From positions 1 through 31,658 of IMG/VR virus record IMGVR_UViG_3300050023_000028: a stretch of DNA of 31,658 bases; one strand, written 5' to 3'. The notes beneath the pieces are model-generated. The model ran no database searches, had not been told where the DNA came from, and saw only the letters and a program-made list of their open reading frames with translations. A program made the position numbers and the translations under genes. Positions within the stretch are counted from its first letter, which is position 1. The number at the start of each line of letters is the position of its first letter. The stretch is from a virus. Positions 410-16,584 of this stretch are shown piece after piece.

Positions 410-1470
410 GCGCGCCCCGTAGGTTAATGGCGGGGATAGCTCTTGCTGTTGGTGGATTTAGTTCTGGATTGAATGGGGGACCAAACCAAGCATTTGAAGT
501 TTTGAAGACAGCATCTGACATGGATTGGCGTCAAAAGATGGAGAAGATAAGCGCCAAGGTACAGGACATGCAGCAAGCTGGTGCGACGGCAGACCAACTG
601 AGGGCATTTACCCAGCAGGGGATAATGCATGCATTGGCGAGCCAGTCTGCGAAGAACATAAAGATTGAAGCGATGGGTATGAAGAGGCTAGCTCCCTATC
701 CACAAGCGCAGCTAGCTTTTCAAAAGGCTATGGCGATGCAGAAGCAGAAGACGGCTGAAGAGCAGGCGAAGTTCCAGGCACCGTATTCGAACAAAGAGAC
801 TACTACTACTACCAAAGGAGGTGTAGTGACTACAACTACTGGGAAAGCTGGCAGTGGAAGTTCGACGGGAGATAGACTGCCTGAGGCCAGGAAAATTGAA
901 GCTTTACATGGTGCGGCTACGAATTTGCGTGTGGCAGTGGAAAATTCGTCGAATGATCCAGCCCCAGCAAAGTATCTCAAAGTCATTGCAGAAAATTTCC
1001 AACAAATGAATGTGGCAGGCAAGTTAAAAACAGAAGGTTTGGAAGGAAGACTTTCTGCTGGAATTCTAGAAAGAGGGGGGTTATTTCCTGGATCGCTTGT
1101 AGAAGGTATTCCTACTCAATATAGAGATTACTCACGTAAGTGGTTAGCTCACACAATAGCTGGAGCAAACGCAGATGCAGGGAGAGCAGCACTTTCTCCA
1201 GAGGAGCTGAATGGAAGAGTCCTGGAGAAAGCCGACGACCGCCAAGGACTCTCTCCAACAGAGAACGCTAGTGAGGATAGACAAGAAATTACGAGTAGTA
1301 TGAAAGTTGCTAGTGAAGCAGGTAAAGCTGAAGAGCGCGCCAAGCATGAACCCCGTAAAGTTGACACAGCGCTCTATCAGAGCGCGGTGAAAAGTGTGAA
1401 AGCTGGAAAAGAAATTCCTGGCCAGAGACAATTCATAACCTGGTACGAGGGAAAGTATGGCAAACGATAA
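385..1470 (+). CDS. Probable internal virion (DNA-ejection type) protein, C-terminal part
   Basis: 361 residues from ATG 385. Near the N-terminus is the segment RRLMAGIALAVGGFSSGLNG, a Gly/Ala-rich hydrophobic stretch that resembles one I recall from phage internal virion proteins, where it follows a long helical N-terminal region. Here that region sits in the preceding gene in another frame. Residues about 40-130 are Gln/Ala/Lys-rich and likely helical. A short Thr/Val/Gly linker (TTTTTKGGVVTTTT) follows, then a polar C-terminal half. There is no Shine-Dalgarno sequence before ATG 385, which argues that this is not an independent start. The stop overlaps the next gene by 14 bases. Function is inferred; a separately translated protein remains possible. 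Confidence 0.6.
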   Translation: MSTLFEDMSAPRRLMAGIALAVGGFSSGLNGGPNQAFEVLKTASDMDWRQKMEKISAKVQDMQQAGATADQLRAFTQQGIMHALASQSAKNIKIEAMGMKRLAPYPQAQLAFQKAMAMQKQKTAEEQAKFQAPYSNKETTTTTKGGVVTTTTGKAGSGSSTGDRLPEARKIEALHGAATNLRVAVENSSNDPAPAKYLKVIAENFQQMNVAGKLKTEGLEGRLSAGILERGGLFPGSLVEGIPTQYRDYSRKWLAHTIAGANADAGRAALSPEELNGRVLEKADDRQGLSPTENASEDRQEITSSMKVASEAGKAEERAKHEPRKVDTALYQSAVKSVKAGKEIPGQRQFITWYEGKYGKR

Positions 1471-3244
1471 TCAATCTAACCTCTGGACTAGAAGATTAGG
1501 CCAACTAGGAGTTGATACTTCTACAACACCATTAACTCCACCACATCAACCTAAGGAAGTTGATTCTTGGACTAGAAGATTAGGCCAACTAGGAGTTGAT
1601 ACTTCTACAACACCATTAACTCCACCACATCAACCTAGGGCTGTGTTCACAGATCAACCAGGGAGTTCATATACAGCAGAGCAACTGAAAAACTTTCGGC
1701 CTGTGCCGGTCGACTATAAGACGGACACGGGTGAAGCGGCATTGTATGGGCTGGCTAGAGGGGGAACTCTAGGCGGCGTGGATAGACTAGTTGGATTAGG
1801 AAATTACTTGGGAGATCAAGTGGCATCCAGCGAGTCGTCTGGCCTAAAGCCAACACCAAATGTCTACAAGAATAGCCGCCAAGAATACTTAGACAACGAA
1901 GCGAAAGCAACAGAAGACCACGAATGGGCACACACTCTAGGAGAACTAGCTGGAGGACTTGTCCCTACTATCGCAACCGCAGGCGCGACTGGTCCAGTAA
2001 TACAAGCTGGTGTACTCGGAGGAGTTTCTGGTGCAATGAATAACCCCTCTGACGACCCAAAAGAACTAGCAAAGTCGGGAGCATGGGGAGCAGCTACTTC
2101 TGCTGTAGGACAGCACGTTCTTGGTAAGGTGCTCTCTCCATCAGAGGCGTTGCATAATCAAGCGCGCGGATTACCTGCCGCAATGGAAAGAGTAAATCCA
2201 ACAGCAGGAAAAGAAGCAGACGAAACATTGGCAGCAGCACGTCAACAGTTGAAGCTAGACAAAAAGTTTGCGGATGCTGCTAGAAATGACGCAGTTACTG
2301 CCAATAGGATGGCGACGGACAAACTCGATGCTTTGACTCCTGCACCTCCTGATGTGTATAGAACTTTAGATACAGTAAGACAGGTTTCGGCCGATGACTT
2401 TAGAAACGCGATAGATTCAACTGAACTGCCCGTGAATGCAAAGAGGGCCAAAGCCGTATTAGACGATTGGCTCAATGATCTTCGAGATAAAGACCTAATG
2501 GACACTGTCCCAACCTCAGAGACAGAAGTCGAAGACCGAATTCCTGCCGCAGAAGTCCATAAATTTGTGCGAAATACCAGACTTGACCCAGATAAAGCCC
2601 CAGCTGCTCCCATAGCCGAACAAGTTTGGAAAAATCATCTAAAGACTGTCGACGAAGCCGCTAGTTCTACAGCAAAAAAGATGCGGCAACAGGCTAGCCT
2701 AGCTCCTACACTGCCTAGCTCCACTCCTACTTCAGTCTTACGTAATCTACTTGCAGACAGAGCTGAAAAGGCTCCTGAAGCGGTAAATAGATTGCGCAAC
2801 GATGATGCCACTGATAGGGCACTTGTGACGATGCGTAAGGTGTTCCAAAACCGAGTGAACGCAGGAGAGCATCCTACTCCCACAGTCGGACATGGAATGG
2901 ATATCCCTATCCTAGGTGGGTTAGCTTCTTTAGCGGGCGGACATCCAGGCATAGCAGGATTAGCAGGATTGGCTCACGTGGCAAAAAAATACGGAGACGC
3001 CCCTTTGCACGCGCTAAACGATGTTGTTCTTGTTCCTATAATGCAAGCAATTGACAAAGGAAAACCCTGGGGGGAGATTTTACGTATAGCCCTAGAAAGA
3101 GGATTTCCACAAAGCATTGCTCGCGCCATGTATGAGAAAAAAGCATCACTAGATGCAGTACCGAAAGAGGTTGTCAAGGAGGGACGCGACCTCCTAGGTA
3201 TGCCTGGAACTCCTGCTGTTAACAGTCAAGGACAGAAGAAATGA
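1457..3244 (+). CDS. Probable internal virion / DNA-ejection protein with duplicated N-terminal segment
   Basis: 595 residues; ATG 1457 follows a GAGGG ribosome site and overlaps the upstream stop. The N-terminus carries two identical 23-residue copies (WTRRLGQLGVDTSTT and following) separated by five residues. Residues about 90-220 are Gly/Ala-rich and amphipathic (LARGGTLGGVDRLVGLG, LAGGLVPTIATAGATGPVI), of the kind found in ejection proteins that insert into the envelope. Residues about 250-480 are charged and helical, and about 485-520 is a second Gly/Ala-rich hydrophobic patch. Together with the preceding gene it probably forms the set of proteins packed inside the head and released on infection. 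This is inferred from composition and order; no enzymatic motif (lytic transglycosylase, peptidase) was found. Confidence 0.6.
   Translation: MANDNQSNLWTRRLGQLGVDTSTTPLTPPHQPKEVDSWTRRLGQLGVDTSTTPLTPPHQPRAVFTDQPGSSYTAEQLKNFRPVPVDYKTDTGEAALYGLARGGTLGGVDRLVGLGNYLGDQVASSESSGLKPTPNVYKNSRQEYLDNEAKATEDHEWAHTLGELAGGLVPTIATAGATGPVIQAGVLGGVSGAMNNPSDDPKELAKSGAWGAATSAVGQHVLGKVLSPSEALHNQARGLPAAMERVNPTAGKEADETLAAARQQLKLDKKFADAARNDAVTANRMATDKLDALTPAPPDVYRTLDTVRQVSADDFRNAIDSTELPVNAKRAKAVLDDWLNDLRDKDLMDTVPTSETEVEDRIPAAEVHKFVRNTRLDPDKAPAAPIAEQVWKNHLKTVDEAASSTAKKMRQQASLAPTLPSSTPTSVLRNLLADRAEKAPEAVNRLRNDDATDRALVTMRKVFQNRVNAGEHPTPTVGHGMDIPILGGLASLAGGHPGIAGLAGLAHVAKKYGDAPLHALNDVVLVPIMQAIDKGKPWGEILRIALERGFPQSIARAMYEKKASLDAVPKEVVKEGRDLLGMPGTPAVNSQGQKK
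1484..1636 (+). repeat. Exact 69-bp in-frame direct duplication
   Basis: Bases 1484-1552 and 1568-1636 are identical over 69 bp, with a repeat period of 84 bp (28 codons). The copies encode 23 identical residues rich in Thr/Pro/Leu near the start of the virion protein. Because synonymous positions have not drifted, the duplication is recent or is being homogenised. Confidence 0.95.
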
Positions 3245-4892: not shown

Positions 4893-5276
4893 ATGGGTGC
4901 ATATTCTCGCCGTCCACAAACTCCGATTGCGACTCCTACTGGTGCTAACGGTACAGTTTTGATCTATGATGACGCTTTCACGCGCCACGATCTCCAGTCG
5001 ACTGCAAAGGACGTGGTTTGGATTACTGTAGCGTGTTACTTGACTCAGGCATGTACATTGGTACATAAGTGGGCACCTAGGTCCGATTCTCCTGATGCGG
5101 CATTGCAGAACATCAGTTCTGCTGATACGTCATTCAATGTTAGTGCGAACTCCTTTTTCCAAAAGTCAGTTCGTCTTCGTCCAGGAAGGAATCAGATAAG
5201 TTTTGCAGTTGGCGCGACACCTCCTGCAGCGAACTGGCTAGCTGTTGAAATCGAGCATTACCCAGGGCTTCGGTAA
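4893..5276 (+). CDS. Small beta-rich protein, probably virion-associated
   Basis: 127 residues from ATG 4893, preceded by AAAGGAAAAA. The protein has a flexible Pro/Thr N-terminus, then alternating polar and hydrophobic strands (GTVLIYDDAF; DVVWITVACYLTQACTLVHKW; RNQISFAVGATPPAANWLAVEIEHY). The pattern suggests a single beta-sandwich, as in small phage decoration or fibre-attachment proteins. It precedes the collagen-like fibre by one gene. No enzymatic residues are evident; the assignment is from fold impression and neighbourhood only. Confidence 0.5.
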   Translation: MGAYSRRPQTPIATPTGANGTVLIYDDAFTRHDLQSTAKDVVWITVACYLTQACTLVHKWAPRSDSPDAALQNISSADTSFNVSANSFFQKSVRLRPGRNQISFAVGATPPAANWLAVEIEHYPGLR

Positions 5277-5286
5277 CAAGTTGAGG

Positions 5287-5302
5287 GCGTCCGCGCGGAC
5301 GC
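5287..5302. repeat. GC-rich palindrome, copy 1 (intergenic)
   Basis: A perfect 16-bp palindrome, GCGTCCGCGCGGACGC, fills most of the gap between two genes. It stands between a GAGG ribosome-like site (5283-5286) and the next start codons (GTG 5303, ATG 5309), so as RNA it could fold between the two. The same core recurs at 14003, 16416, 21186 and 28081. Confidence 0.85.
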
Positions 5303-5611
5303 GTGAAAATGCCTTTCCGATTTCCGCTAGTTCCTCCAAAGAGTCTACTGGAGTTATTCCAGTGGATCAGAGAGCTATTGCCTCAGCTAGAGCCGAAGGT
5401 CATATATGACATTCAGGTTCAGGCGACCGTCGACCAAGCTAATCCGGTCATCACGACAGTGTGCCATGGCTTGAGGAACCCTCCTAGTTTCGTGCGAGTT
5501 AGCCTTCCTGACTGTGAGTCTCTGGTGTGTTTTGCTAAGGAGGCGGATAGCAAGAACATCTACCTTCGTGCGTCGAATCTTTGTGTAGTCTCTGTGGAGA
5601 TAGTCCCATGA
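5303..5611 (+). CDS. Small hypothetical protein before the fibre gene
   Basis: 102 residues from GTG 5303, or 100 from ATG 5309. The start is uncertain because a 16-bp palindrome sits directly upstream. The protein begins with a Pro/Leu-rich helix (PKSLLELFQWIRELLPQLEP), then a beta-rich half (VIYDIQVQATVDQANPVITT; PPSFVRVSLPDCESLVCFAK) ending in VVSVEIVP. The stop overlaps the fibre start as ATGA, indicating coupled translation. A small adaptor or trimer-organising protein for the fibre would fit, but no homologous family was recognised. Confidence 0.5.
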   Translation: MKMPFRFPLVPPKSLLELFQWIRELLPQLEPKVIYDIQVQATVDQANPVITTVCHGLRNPPSFVRVSLPDCESLVCFAKEADSKNIYLRASNLCVVSVEIVP

Positions 5612-8600
5612 CGCCCATTTCTACAGTGCCTAGCAAGAAAGGATTCAACTATCCTGATTTCAAGGGAGGCGGAGGAAGTGGTGTACAAGGATTCCAAGGC
5701 CGGCAAGGTAAAGGGGGAACAGGAAATCAGGGTGCGGTAGGCTTTCAAGGCCCTCAAGGTTGGCAGGGGAACCAGGGGTTTCAAGGGAACCAGGGGTTCC
5801 AGGGGAACCAGGGGACTACTGGAACGACGGGTAATCCGGGTTCAGCTGGGAATCAAGGGAATCAAGGGAATCAGGGAAACCAGATACTCTATAACGGGGT
5901 GTACTACTTCAATCCTGCACCTACACCAACAGAAAGTTGGTCTCTTACACCGTTCGTTCCTCTAGGATCTGCTGAACCCGGAGCAAATATCTTTGGTGGC
6001 CCTTATCCTTCTGGAAATACGATAGAGTACTTTGATACTCAGCCAAACGACCCAACCCAGATTACTTGGCCAACTCAGACACTTACTTTCAATCTTTGGT
6101 CTAAAGCTCCAGCATTACCTGTTGGCCATGATTATGTACTGGTCGTCAGTGTCTATCGTGAGTCTGCAGATGGTTCGTCATCTGTTACGTGGTTGAGCTA
6201 TGCCCCCACGTACCCCCTGTTTTTCACAGACTGGGGGCTGACTCAGATAGTTGTTAGTGTGAGTGAACTTGATGGGCTTCCTTCTGACAGGATCAAAGTT
6301 AGGATTGCCGTATACGGGAATGTATCAGACACATTTCCTGTCTTTTTTGGCGTTGGTGGGGCACACGCTAGCTATTTTACGATCCAATTTCTCTCTCCGC
6401 CCGCAGGACTTCCAGGTACATCTGGTAACCAGGGGTATCAAGGAAATCAAGGGTTCCAAGGGAACCAGGGGTTCCAGGGTTGGCAGGGAACCCAAGGGAA
6501 CCAGGGGTTCCAGGGTTGGCAGGGTTGGCAGGGAAAACAGGGGTTCCAGGGATGGCAAGGGAACCAAGGGAACCAAGGGTTCCAGGGATGGCAGGGAAAC
6601 CAGGGGAACCAAGGGTTCCAGGGTTGGCAGGGAACCCAAGGGAACCAGGGGTTCCAGGGGTGGCAAGGGAATCAGGGGAACCAAGGGAACCAGGGTTGGC
6701 AGGGGAACCAAGGGAACCAGGGGTTCCAGGGGTGGCAGGGAACCCAAGGGAACCAGGGGTTCCAGGGTTGGCAGGGAAATCAAGGGAACCAGGGGTTCCA
6801 AGGAACAGCGGGAACGACAGGGTCAGCAGGTGTACAGGGGAACCAAGGGGTCCAAGGTTTGATTGGATTTCAGGGGTTTCAGGGCTTAGGCGCGACGGGT
6901 GTACAAGGTAACCAAGGGTTCCAGGGACTTCAGGGCTGGCAGGGACGCCAAGGGTTCCAGGGCTTCCAGGGCTTCCAAGGCTTCCAGGGATGGCAGGGGT
7001 TCCAAGGTTTGATCGGGTTCCAAGGGAGTCAGGGGTTCCAGGGTTGGCAGGGAACCCAAGGGAACCAGGGGTTCCAGGGGTGGCAGGGAACCCAAGGGAA
7101 CCAGGGGTTCCAGGGGTGGCAGGGAACCCAAGGGAACCAGGGGTTCCAGGGTTGGCAGGGAAATCAAGGGAACCAGGGGTTCCAGGGGTGGCAGGGGTTC
7201 CAAGGTCAGATCGGACTTCAAGGATTTCAGGGTGACAAAGGGTTCCAGGGGAACCAGGGATGGCAGGGGTTCCAGGGGAACCAAGGGTTCCAAGGCTGGC
7301 AGGGATTTCAGGGAATAGCGGGAACTACAGGAAATTCTGGTTCGACTGGAAGTCAAGGGAACCAGGGGTTCCAAGGATTCCAGGGGTGGCAGGGTTGGCA
7401 GGGTTGGCAGGGATGGCAAGGGAACGTGGGGAATCAAGGGTTCCAGGGGAACCAAGGGTTCCAAGGGTGGCAGGGATTCCAGGGAACCGGGATACAGGGA
7501 TACGGAGTTCAAGGTCCCCAGGGGTGGCAGGGTTTTCAAGGTTGGCAGGGCTGGCAAGGAGGGAGTGCTAATTACATCGCTCGTCGAACTATTTTACTTC
7601 CAGGTGCTGCCTCAACGTTCACTCTATTAAGTACCAGTTTGCCTGTCAGGCTCTATGGAGTAGGAGGTGGAGGAGGCGGAGGAGGTGTAGCTTCCACCCG
7701 CACCGGTGGTGGTGGTGGAGCGAGTGGGGGCTATTTTGAAGTTCTGTTGACAAGTCCTGGCGCGAATCTCACTGGAATAACAATTGGAACAGGAGGTCCA
7801 GGGGGGTCAACTTCTGGTGGTGTTGGAACAGCTGGTAACAATACAGTGGTTACTGTTGGGTCAACAACTTACACTGCAGGAGGAGGGGGTGGAGCAGATG
7901 GTGGAGCAACGTCCAATCTTCCTAAAGGAGGTTCTGGGGTAGCTGGATCTAATGGTGACATCAACGAACCAGGCCAGTTTGGACAAGCAGGTGGATCTTT
8001 CTATGGGGGTGGAGCGGGTGGAGGGTATGGAGGTGGAGCTTATAAGAGCACACAAGGAGATGGAAACCCTGGGGTTAAGGGTGGTGGGGGTAGTGGAGGT
8101 GCAAATTTAGCGTCAACTGGTCAACTTGGTGGAGCAGGTGGAGATGGTTACTTAATCATAGATGAGTACGCTGCCGGTATTGTTAGTACAGTGGGACCGC
8201 AAGGTCCGGGAAATGTTGGAACCCAGGGGTTCCAAGGCTTCCAGGGATACCAGGGACGGCAAGGTTGGCAAGGGTTTCAGGGTTTTCAGGGTTGGCAGGG
8301 GCCACAAGGGAATCAGGGTTGGCAAGGGTTTCAGGGTTTAGGGAATTTTGGCGCACAGGGACCTCAAGGAACAAATCCTGGTGTACAGGGTAGACAAGGA
8401 CCGCAAGGGTGGCAGGGATGGCAGGGGTTCCAAGGATGGCAGGGGTTGGGGAATTTTGGAGTACAGGGGTTTCAGGGCAGGCAAGGGCCTCAGGGATGGC
8501 AAGGGTTCCAGGGCTGGCAGGGACTAGGGAACTTCGGCGTTCAGGGATTCCAGGGCAGGCAAGGGCCTCAGGGATGGCAAGGGTTCCAGGGCTGGCAGGG

Positions 8601-9420
8601 ACTAGGGAACTTCGGCGTTCAGGGATTCCAGGGCAGGCAAGGGAATCAGGGGAACCAAGGGAACCAGGGGCCAAGCGCGCTTCCAGTTTTCGTAGCTGGT
8701 CATGTATTCACAACGTCTCAGACGTATACGATCACAAATCCCAACACGAACATAGTGTTCATAAAAGCTTCTGCAGGAGGAGGGGGTGGCGGAGGAGCAC
8801 TGTCTTTGTCTGGAGGGCTGAATGGATGTGTTGCGGCAGCGGGGGGAGGAGGCAGTGGCGCAAAGATAGAATATTGGCAGTCTGTTGTAACTAATGACGC
8901 GATAGTCATGACTATTGGGATTGGAGGATCGGGAGGAACTAATGCACCTACAGCAGGAACTGCTGGAGGGAACACAGTAATACAAACACCATATTCTACA
9001 GCTACGTTGGGTGGAGGTGGAGGAGGGCTACCAATGACGGCAACAATAGGAAGTTTGATACAGCAATTTGCAGCTGGAGGTGCTACTTCAACAGCTTCAG
9101 GAGTTAGTGGTATTGTGATAAATGAATCCGGAATGCCTGGAAGCCCCGGAATCCTTCTTGGTGCACTTCCTTATACATCCGCAGGATCAAGGGATATAGG
9201 AATTTCAGGTAACGGGGGTGGTCCTGGAGGAGGACCAGGAATAGTTGGAGGATTAACACCAGGCGGAGTCATAGGTGCGACCTCCAATGGAAATGGTGCC
9301 TCCAGCTATGGCGGAGGAGGAGGGGGAGGACTTACTCTATCTGCGGGAGGAACAAATGCGTTTGCTACCGGAGGGAGTGGATTCGGAGGATTTGTCGAAA
9401 TTATAGAGTACCATATGTGA
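5608..9420 (+). CDS. Giant collagen-like and glycine-rich tail fibre / adhesin
   Basis: 1270 residues from ATG 5608 (GGAG upstream; ATGA overlap). An in-frame TTG at 5581 has no good site. Layout: residues 1-25 N-terminus with GGGGS; 26-91 Gly-X-Y repeat; 92-270 globular, beta-rich; 270-652 a long Gly-X-Gln repeat with X mostly Phe, Trp, Asn or Thr; 653-861 glycine-rich domain ([14 protein letters not shown], then alternating strands and Gly runs, ending DGYLIIDEY); 862-1022 further Gly-X-Gln repeat; 1023-1270 a second glycine-rich domain ending [12 protein letters not shown]. The repeats should form trimeric collagen triple helices; the Gly-rich domains match the Gly_rich_2 type seen in phage adhesins. 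It is likely the receptor-binding fibre, followed by a glycosyltransferase and a second fibre. Gln in the Y position replaces the hydroxyproline used in animal collagen. Confidence 0.85.
6416..7563 (+). repeat. Collagen-like minisatellite in the fibre gene
   Basis: About 380 codons of nearly uninterrupted Gly-X-Gln triplets. The DNA is itself repetitive: four 36-bp units lie head to tail at 7034-7177 (12 residues each, [12 protein letters not shown]) with very few differences, and similar units occur at about 6470-6790. The tract should be prone to length change by recombination or slippage. Confidence 0.9.
8473..8643 (+). repeat. 78-bp tandem repeat (26 residues) in the fibre gene
   Basis: Bases 8473-8550 and 8551-8628 are identical, followed by the first 15 bp of a third copy; a diverged copy lies upstream at about 8395-8472. 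Each unit encodes several Gly-X-Gln triplets plus the interruption GLGNFGVQG, which breaks the triplet register. Confidence 0.9.
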
Positions 9421-10177: not shown

Positions 10178-10699
10178 ATGGCATCCGATGATTTTCCCAA
10201 TGCGCCTTATTCCAACGACAATTTTCCTCCTATCCTTACTGTAGGAAATCAAGGGAACCAGGGAAACCAAGGATGGCAGGGGTTTCAAGGAATAGGGAAT
10301 TTTGGAGTACAGGGTCCACAGGGGCCGCAAGGGTGGCAGGGGTTCCAAGGGAACCAGGGGTGGCAGGGGTTCCAGGGTTGGCAGGGGTTTCAGGGGAACC
10401 AAGGATGGCAGGGGTTCCAAGGGTTCCAGGGTTGGCAGGGAAACCAAGGGAACCAGGGGTTCCAAGGGTGGCAAGGATTTCAGGGGAACCAAGGGTTCCA
10501 AGGGTTCCAAGGGTTCCAGGGGTTTCAAGGACTTGTAGGAACTCAGGGCTTCCAAGGTTTTCAAGACTTTACTGGGCAAGCCGCAGCTGGGGCTGTTGGA
10601 GTAGTTCTGTCTTCAGGCCCCACTGGATCTCACGTTGGTGTTCAAGGTTGGCTTACTGTCACAGTCAATAGCATCACTCGTTACGTGCCGTTTTGGTGA
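10178..10699 (+). CDS. Short collagen-like fibre protein
   Basis: 173 residues from ATG 10178, preceded by GAGGT. Residues 1-22 are a non-repetitive N-terminus with Pro/Asn/Asp. About 23-128 are Gly-X-Gln repeats of the same type as in the giant fibre, including the register break GIGNFGVQG. About 129-173 form a short C-terminal domain ([20 protein letters not shown] then [16 protein letters not shown]). The C-terminus probably nucleates the trimer or attaches it to the virion. The gene is separated from the giant fibre by the glycosyltransferase, and the shared interruption points to gene duplication or exchange between the two. A role as accessory fibre or capsid fibre is likely from the repeat type. 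Confidence 0.8.
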
Positions 10700-12528: not shown

Positions 12529-12595
12529 ATGATTGATGGGTTACGAGGCCATCAACGGGGAGAGTTACGCCACAGTCCCCCAAACAGGAGTTACG

Positions 12596-14949: not shown

Positions 14950-15251
14950 CAGTAGTATTTAGCGGGGCAGAAGGAAAGCCTCGGTACATTCCTGGAATTG
15001 GGTCCAAGGGGAGCGTACACGTGGACCAACGCACTGCATCTGGCGCGTTAGTCTCAAGAATGGAGATGGACCCAACAGGCCAGAGTGTCTTGGTTTGGAT
15101 AGTCGACACAAATGGTCAACCGGTCAAGACGTTCGATAAGACGGCGGACTACTTTATGTTGCATGGTGACTTCCTAGGCATTCCGATTGGGAATGGGACA
15201 GTCATCTACGAGTACGATAAGCAGGCAGTCGAGAAGAAGGACAAGAAGTAA
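14931..15251 (+). CDS. Hypothetical beta-rich protein
   Basis: 106 residues. ATG 14931 follows GGAGGAATCA and overlaps the preceding gene by 19 bases; a TTG 60 bases upstream in the same frame is not preferred. The sequence alternates strands and turns (QRVVAVVFSGAEGKPRYIPG; VLVWIVDTNGQPVKTFDKTA; IGNGTVIYEYDKQAVEKKDK) with a basic end. It looks like a small soluble beta-barrel or sandwich. No family was recognised. It sits in the run of small genes between initiator and terminase, where host-takeover or DNA-associated genes are common. Confidence 0.5.
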   Translation: MAQRVVAVVFSGAEGKPRYIPGIGSKGSVHVDQRTASGALVSRMEMDPTGQSVLVWIVDTNGQPVKTFDKTADYFMLHGDFLGIPIGNGTVIYEYDKQAVEKKDKK

Positions 15252-15262
15252 GAGGAACAGTC

Positions 15263-15664
15263 ATGGAAGTTACAAAGGAATTTTTACTCAACGCAGACAC
15301 ACATGCTCTCCTAGAACTTCTGGACTCTGAGCGTCCGAACTTCGGAGATAGTTTCGGCTGCTTCCGTTGCGTGCTCTGCACGTACTGCAAGGACTGCAAG
15401 GACTGCACGAACTGCACGTACTGCACGTACTGCACGAACTGCACGAACTGCACGAACTGCACGTACTGCACGAACTGCACGTACTGCATGAACTGCAAGG
15501 ACTGCACGAACTGCACGTACGGCACGAACTGCACGAACTGCACGTACTGCACGAACTGCACGTACTGCAGGAACTGCACGGGCCTAACCGACAAAAAATA
15601 CGTCATCAAGAACGTACAACTTTCAGAGGAAGAGTATTTTCGGGTTCTGGCTAAATTTGAGTAG
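15263..15664 (+). CDS. Cys-triplet repeat protein (25 x C-x-x)
   Basis: 133 residues from ATG 15263 (AGAGGAAC upstream). Residues 1-32 form a helical cap (EVTKEFLLNADTHALLELLD). Residues 33-107 are 25 consecutive triplets of the form Cys-x-x, mostly C-T-N and C-T-Y; 24 of the 25 first positions are Cys and one is Gly (TGC to GGC). The last 26 residues (LTDKKYVIKNVQLSEEEYFR and on) form a normal helical end. A cysteine at every third residue would line one face of a solenoid and could form a disulfide ladder or bind many metal ions. Intact, non-repetitive caps on both sides and a good ribosome site argue for a real protein. Function is unknown. Confidence 0.7.
   Translation: MEVTKEFLLNADTHALLELLDSERPNFGDSFGCFRCVLCTYCKDCKDCTNCTYCTYCTNCTNCTNCTYCTNCTYCMNCKDCTNCTYGTNCTNCTYCTNCTYCRNCTGLTDKKYVIKNVQLSEEEYFRVLAKFE
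15359..15583 (+). repeat. 9-bp microsatellite coding for C-T-N / C-T-Y triplets
   Basis: 225 bp made from TGC-ACG-AAC and TGC-ACG-TAC units with a few AAG-GAC units. Codon choice is almost invariant (always TGC; Thr almost always ACG), so the array has expanded recently or is kept uniform by recombination or slippage. Confidence 0.9.
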
Positions 15665-16258: not shown

Positions 16259-16584
16259 CGCGCGAAGAGCGAATAGACAGAGTGGTCCTTGCCATCTGCA
16301 GCGCTGAGATTCCTACGCATGGCTCGCATTTGATGGCTTGTAGTGCTGACCTCAAAGCCGTGAGGAAGTGGGCGGAAGCGGCTTTGGATTCTGCCGATGA
16401 CAGCAGAGATAAGGAGTACGTCCGCGCGGACGTACCTAACGCTCCAGATGGACGAAGGCCTTGTACACACGGGCGTTTAAGTTGCGACTTATGTAGGTGG
16501 TCGAACGGTCGCGCGGTAGAGTACTGGGAAGGCCAGCGAAGAAGGCCAGTGAAAATGTTCCACGTGAAACATCGTGAGCCCTGA
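16255..16584 (+). CDS. Small protein carrying a palindrome and a parS site in its coding region
   Basis: 109 residues from ATG 16255, coupled by ATGA to the previous gene. Residues 1-48 are helical and resemble small phage helper proteins (TREERIDRVVLAICSAEIPT; LKAVRKWAEAALDSADDS). Residues about 53-60 (KEYVRADV) are encoded by the 20-bp palindrome, and CTHGRLSCDLC (residues 69-79) holds a possible zinc site. The C-terminal MFHVKH is encoded by the parS-like site. The stop overlaps terL as TGATG. No enzymatic function is visible. The C-terminus may be shaped by the DNA sites rather than by protein needs. Confidence 0.55.
   Translation: MTREERIDRVVLAICSAEIPTHGSHLMACSADLKAVRKWAEAALDSADDSRDKEYVRADVPNAPDGRRPCTHGRLSCDLCRWSNGRAVEYWEGQRRRPVKMFHVKHREP
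16416..16435. repeat. GC-rich palindrome, copy 3 (20-bp perfect)
   Basis: GTACGTCCGCGCGGACGTAC is its own reverse complement over 20 bp, the longest of the five copies. It lies 120 bp before the parS-like site and 148 bp before terL. It is read C-GTC-CGC-GCG-GAC-G, a different frame from copy 2. Confidence 0.9.
16556..16571 (+). promoter_or_regulatory. parS-like site (ParB-binding consensus)
   Basis: TGTTCCACGTGAAACA fits the chromosomal parS consensus TGTTNCACGTGAAACA at every defined position. It is the only such site found in the window; other CACGTG cores (2974, 15019, 24738, 30175) do not match. It ends 12 bases before the terL start codon and encodes FHVKH in the gene at 16255. No ParA or ParB gene is visible here, so a host protein would have to bind it. 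Confidence 0.65.

Follow-up and report, generated by a model that had tools for sequence, protein, structure and literature searches.

A phage protein of Cys-x-x triplets between conserved caps, a candidate beta-solenoid with a three-residue unit

Is a 9-bp repeat in which nearly every third codon specifies Cys a gene and, if so, what kind of protein could it encode? This question is raised by an open reading frame (ORF) of the window, the whole stretch of 31,658 nucleotides analysed here (positions 1 to 31,658 of IMG/VR record IMGVR_UViG_3300050023_000028). The window is from a phage, as indicated by a terminase large subunit gene at 16584 (phrog_2, 9.2e-21) and a replication-initiation protein gene at 12533. 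The ORF (15263–15664, plus strand, as are all its parts) starts with ATG and encodes 133 amino acids followed by a stop. Direct reading of the DNA revealed a Shine-Dalgarno-like AGAGGA (15251–15256, plus strand) 6 nt upstream of the ATG, which bears out the ribosome site noted in an earlier, sequence-only reading, and the downstream ORF begins 12 nt past the stop. Residues 1–32 (15263–15358), delimited by alignment, form an N-terminal cap with two predicted helices (model pLDDT 83, 76 for residues 1–20), residues 33–107 (15359–15583) form the array, and residues 108–133 (15584–15661), LTDKKYVIKNVQLSEEEYFRVLAKFE, form a C-terminal cap defined by cap HMM matches and a register count.

The array was delimited with the help of TRF, which reported a period of 9 and 22.8 copies (15376–15580, score 291), and by counting triplets. 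There are 25 of them, and 24 start with Cys, exactly as had been claimed; the single exception is GTN at triplet 19 (GGC codon, 15521–15529). The triplet kinds named earlier, CTN, CTY and CKD, do occur, but the list was incomplete, as CFR, CVL, CMN, CRN and CTG are present as well. All 24 Cys codons are TGC, and the array contains just 9 distinct 9-mers. The proposal that it is young or homogenised therefore holds for the window copy, which appears to be a recently homogenised array, but not for the arrays of its relatives, which are old and diverged, with Cys kept. In a near-identical phage (L001, 99.7–99.8% identity over 4.1 and 6.3 kb), the caps are the same, GTN is present too, and the array has 32 triplets, the additional 63 bp repeating a seven-triplet block that lies at 15449–15511 in the window (plus strand; limits approximate, from triplet strings). 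The anticipated variation in length between strains is thus real as far as 25 and 32 triplets can be read from assemblies, in which 9-bp repeats this long can be mis-assembled.

Both caps, in frame with the triplets, were found by an alignment-based scan and its follow-up in about ten distant phage genes (L033, with two copies, L246, L247, L251, L252, L253, L256, L258 and L259). As far as aligned sequences can tell, they demonstrate the coding frame, the caps, the conservation of Cys and the variation of length in triplet steps. The same caps enclose different repeat numbers, 15–29 triplets in these distant relatives and 32 in L001; among the members counted, the lengths are not quantised as multiples of 9, 12 or 15 residues. 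An N-cap opening of the [TK]-[KR]-E-x-[IL]-L type is common to the window protein and its relatives, and the C-cap follows the consensus [KR]YxIxNVQ[FL][TS]E[ED]EY, so that the window protein belongs to the family by its N-cap, its in-frame triplets and its C-cap. The C-cap HMM gave values of 1e-9 to 1e-16 across the both-cap genes, most of which were in its training set. In 14 of 16 members, the C-cap carries on the register of the triplets, with its slots shifting to L, V or M; in the window protein these slots are L, K and V. Additionally, cap-only paralogues that have no array lie beside the L247 gene (5668–5919) and the L258 gene (5527–5814), indicating that the caps can do without the array and that the latter is an insert that lengthens a small capped domain.

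The relatives also allow the coding frame to be judged. The Cys frame is free of stops in 11/11 members, and the remaining frames carry stops in most of them; apart from the window and L001, where it is open, the antisense −1 frame is closed in all nine members. Coding on the reverse strand was rejected on account of these stops. Moreover, all or nearly all 9-mers differ within an array (19 distinct in 19 triplets of L246, 15 in 15 of L258 and 21 in 22 of L247), and L246 and L258 use TGC and TGT about equally, yet every slot is Cys. Divergence of the 9-mers and mixing of TGC with TGT, seen in L247 too, with Cys kept, argue that selection at the protein level maintains the Cys at each third residue. 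One could still suppose that there is no such protein and that we deal with a simple DNA repeat, or with an antisense gene and a Cys frame that just happens to be open: a 9-bp repeat leaves several frames open, the antisense frame of the window among them, and the array of an isolated phage, FL-1, is annotated in another frame. This seems hardly credible to us, as diverged relatives keep the caps and the Cys frame with the other frames mostly closed, and as a ribosome site is present. Judging by these comparisons, the ORF at 15263–15664 encodes a real protein with non-repetitive caps, as had been claimed; missing caps, a missing frame or frequent frameshifts, any of which would have spoken against it, were not encountered in these 11 members.

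Cys-x-x arrays form a wider class, in which the caps differ. A scan of IMG/VR that was blind to caps and required twelve TGY codons, nine bases apart (the frequency obtained is a lower bound), revealed at least dozens of capped arrays in phages after the removal of microsatellites and antisense collagen repeats, which made many raw pattern matches false. In a curated set of 68 arrays, some of them cellular, 1737 of 1764 slots (98.5%) are occupied by Cys, position 2 is rich in S/T/R/K, and position 3 in D/N/G/S/Y. The codon positions of the Cys slot have entropies of 0.10/0.18/1.03 bits in a diverse set, as compared with 1.5–1.95 bits elsewhere. Among the matches listed, the arrays span 11–77 triplets with an unbroken period of exactly three, and the most frequent alternative N-cap is W-x-D-x-x-[GN]-N ... 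E-A ... L-x-x-C. Two to four paralogues lie close together in L017, L045, L258 and L259.

The window array matches PHROG 15341, to which no function is assigned (E 1.8e-10, residues 32–107, the array only). Cys-x-x arrays have thus been clustered before; the N-terminal part of this PHROG represents another cap type than that of the window protein. Scans of the window protein found 0 families in Pfam, the pentapeptide family PF00805 being absent too, and 0 in NCBIfam at E≤10, and a tblastn search of INPHARED gave no match; there the low-complexity filter probably masks the array. The isolated Flavobacterium phage FL-1 (L272, 979–1807) encodes a Cys-triplet protein, for which the record annotates another frame (APZ82901.1); its C-terminal domain lies in a different frame, which is a frameshift or a sequencing error. 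In three further phages (L101, L119 and L122), an in-frame TGA stands between the Cys-array ORF and a C-cap-like motif, 'YQQPKYRVFNVQLTEEEY', which suggests that TGA may be read as an amino acid, that is, as a possible sense codon, in these phages. A genome of about 1.1 Mb (L243) has ten or so loci for proteins with Cys/Ser triplet slots and CVGLRHKRYHIFNKEY-like ends. Visual comparison and the full profile both suggested a kinship of the window C-cap to such proteins ('CVGLRHKRYHIFNKEYSKENY'), which was dropped because an HMM of the cap alone gave no match at E≤1; the resemblance appears to be one of motif level only.

Could such arrays fold as a solenoid, as the sequence-only reading had proposed? 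The best match to a solved structure by sequence is the beetle antifreeze protein TmAFP (1EZG/1L1I; E 0.008 with the profile, 0.02 with the single sequence), and 1EZG is also the best PDB match in a Foldseek search with the window model (TM 0.53 by target length, E 0.9); these scores are weak, none is significant alone, and Cys composition could drive the sequence match. In TmAFP, the inward residues are C2, S5, C8 and A11, that is, every third (PMC8038014). The window array is similar in its spacing of three, with a residue at each third position that would face inward and T/N/D/K that would face outward, and in the variable number of its tandem repeats. However, TmAFP has Cys in half of its inward slots, within a 12-residue C-S-C-A repeat, whereas practically all slots of the phage arrays are Cys. 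Moreover, TmAFP has a Thr-Cys-Thr ice face, whereas Thr seldom stands before Cys in the curated arrays, where it occupies the third position 14 times in about 1,670; in the window array Thr is absent from this position, which N, Y, D, G, R or L occupy, and the beetle TCT motif (TCTxSxNCxxAx) is absent. We do not claim homology to TmAFP.

A second line of evidence comes from domain architectures. In L067 and L114, the part in front of the phrog_20532 C-terminal domain consists of Cys triplets; in EBPR siphovirus 1 gp3 (L274, PF00805 2.3e-31) it consists of pentapeptide repeats, and in Ruminococcus phage phiRM10 gp34 (L275, PF18836 1.5e-41) of a YdcK/bactofilin-like solenoid. Likewise, phrog_31265 groups the C-domain found in a Cys-triplet protein with a pentapeptide protein. 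Like the Cys arrays, these phage solenoids sit before shared C-terminal domains; unlike them, they have units of 5 or 6 residues and a core of Leu/Phe or Val/Ala. In two architectures other than that of the window protein, such arrays thus change places with known beta-solenoids, the swaps being seen with other caps and none with the window's own.

The third line is the register in five chromosomal proteins of Mycobacterium (L162, L171, L205, L208 and L233), where S-T-S-V slots with a period of exactly 12 residues pass in register into 12–14 Cys slots. This indicates that Cys and small residues can stand in for each other in these proteins and makes four slots per coil the natural reading. In these proteins, AGSVATAGS repeats and Cys triplets are followed by CSGLRNAVGLRDVHA. 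The model of the mycobacterial relatives (pLDDT 41.1) shows bridges at every third residue of the Cys part. The solenoid proposal is thus favoured, indirectly but by independent lines, by the TmAFP match, the domain swaps, the mycobacterial register and, as a fourth line, the C-cap that stays in register with the triplets, but not by structure prediction, which is of low confidence: the AlphaFold model of the window protein has a pLDDT of 59.8 and a pTM of 0.40, with 42–65 in the array and strands predicted in parts of it. No significant match came up in a fold search of BFVD. The outward residues of the phage arrays share no 12-residue period and indicate no clean coil length; their strongest lag, of 5 triplets, is explicable by tandem duplication alone.

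We consider it fairly probable that the protein is a beta-solenoid of three-residue units between caps, with Cys facing inward, and a member of a diverse phage class. The solenoid would be held by its caps, helical at the N-terminus and strand-helix at the C-terminus; every third residue, nearly always Cys, would face the core, and the Thr/Ser/Lys and then Asn/Asp/Tyr residues that follow would face outward. The nearest geometry would be that of TmAFP, with 12 residues per coil and four inward slots, all filled with Cys in place of C-S-C-A. We infer this fold, the 12-residue coil and a core in which thiols or disulfides are stacked. As all sides of such a solenoid are equivalent, its length could change by one triplet without breaking the fold, and repeat slippage or recombination would add or remove single triplets with the fold intact. 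That the tube is cytosolic and carries an uninterrupted ladder of Cys thiols, four per coil, for single-file loading of metal or sulfur clusters or as a disulfide lock, with its length tuned by triplets, is a bolder and improbable extension. If the proposed fold is true, we deal with a beta-solenoid whose unit is very short and whose core is almost purely Cys, a new repeat type next to the pentapeptide and hexapeptide solenoids; it would account for a set of phage families of unknown function, offer a simple designable rod and raise the question of how dozens of packed cytosolic thiols are kept reduced, metal-loaded or bonded. The class occurs in many phages, is not in Pfam and is apparently undescribed: a literature search conducted mostly outside subscription journals found no description of it, the closest being that of Haft 2009.

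The Cys residues may instead serve chemistry rather than architecture, with CxxCxxC binding Zn, Cu, Fe-S or similar, or providing a thiol reservoir in infection, so that the spacing just supplies ligands. The 24 Cys at CxxC spacing with no evident signal peptide, the weak sequence matches in the PDB to CXXC domains that bind zinc and the much stricter conservation of Cys than of other residues are in line with this, which we nevertheless hold to be unlikely. Same-register slots of relatives hold S/T/V/A/L/G and arrays swap with Cys-free solenoids, which together favour a structural role, and the matches listed keep a spacing of exactly three for as many as 77 triplets, with no clusters of ligands. 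Redox or metal chemistry is possible, and no result obtained here needs it; the metal store or redox sink proposed in the sequence-only reading is so far unsupported. A three-residue period would also suit a polyproline-II helix, and thus a bundle of the snow-flea antifreeze type (Gly-x-x), or the array may be a disordered Cys-rich linker, as the low model confidence would allow. These are decidedly unlikely, since the period is unbroken over 11–77 triplets in the matches listed, leaving no room for bundle turns, strands are predicted in array parts, and arrays swap with pentapeptide and YdcK solenoids.

Very unlikely indeed is a RiPP (thiazole/oxazole microcin) precursor in which Cys would be converted to thiazoles, even though heterocycloanthracin precursors also have repeated Cys-Xaa-Xaa with indels of whole units (Haft 2009, PMC2674419), and even though the same DNA pattern scan yielded a genuine precursor, L201 (TIGR03601 bacteriocin precursor, 1.4e-16), which served as a positive control for the NCBIfam scan. 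Unlike it, the window protein remains without an NCBIfam match at a threshold as loose as E 10. In heterocycloanthracin and sonorensin precursors, the core is C-terminal, behind a leader, and a cyclodehydratase is required, whereas the window array is internal and followed by a conserved 26-residue C-cap, and YcaO was found in 0/10 phage records (the window and nine related ones, some of them fragments; a host-encoded enzyme is conceivable). L170 and L127 resemble L201, and all three are from Bacillus/Paenibacillus.

As to the role of the putative solenoid, packaging or head genes are neighbours of the Cys-triplet gene in 6/8 cases examined, a small sample. TerL lies 0.9 kb downstream in the window, TerS/TerL are near the gene in L256 and TerS in L258, a head maturation protease is directly beside it in L246, and the major head protein is within 2.5 kb of it in L251 and L253. 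Our guess, of moderate weight, is that the protein may serve as a rigid rod or as a surface for binding, produced together with the late packaging and head genes. In L251, an ORF adjoining the Cys-triplet gene (5219–5641) has NIDAxDINA repeats of a pentapeptide-like solenoid.

Elsewhere in the window, two ORFs (5581–9420 and 10178–10699) contain long collagen-like G-x-Q repeats and glycine-rich blocks and likely encode fibre or tail proteins, and a perfect 84-bp tandem duplication (1484–1637) lies within the ORF at 1457–3244.
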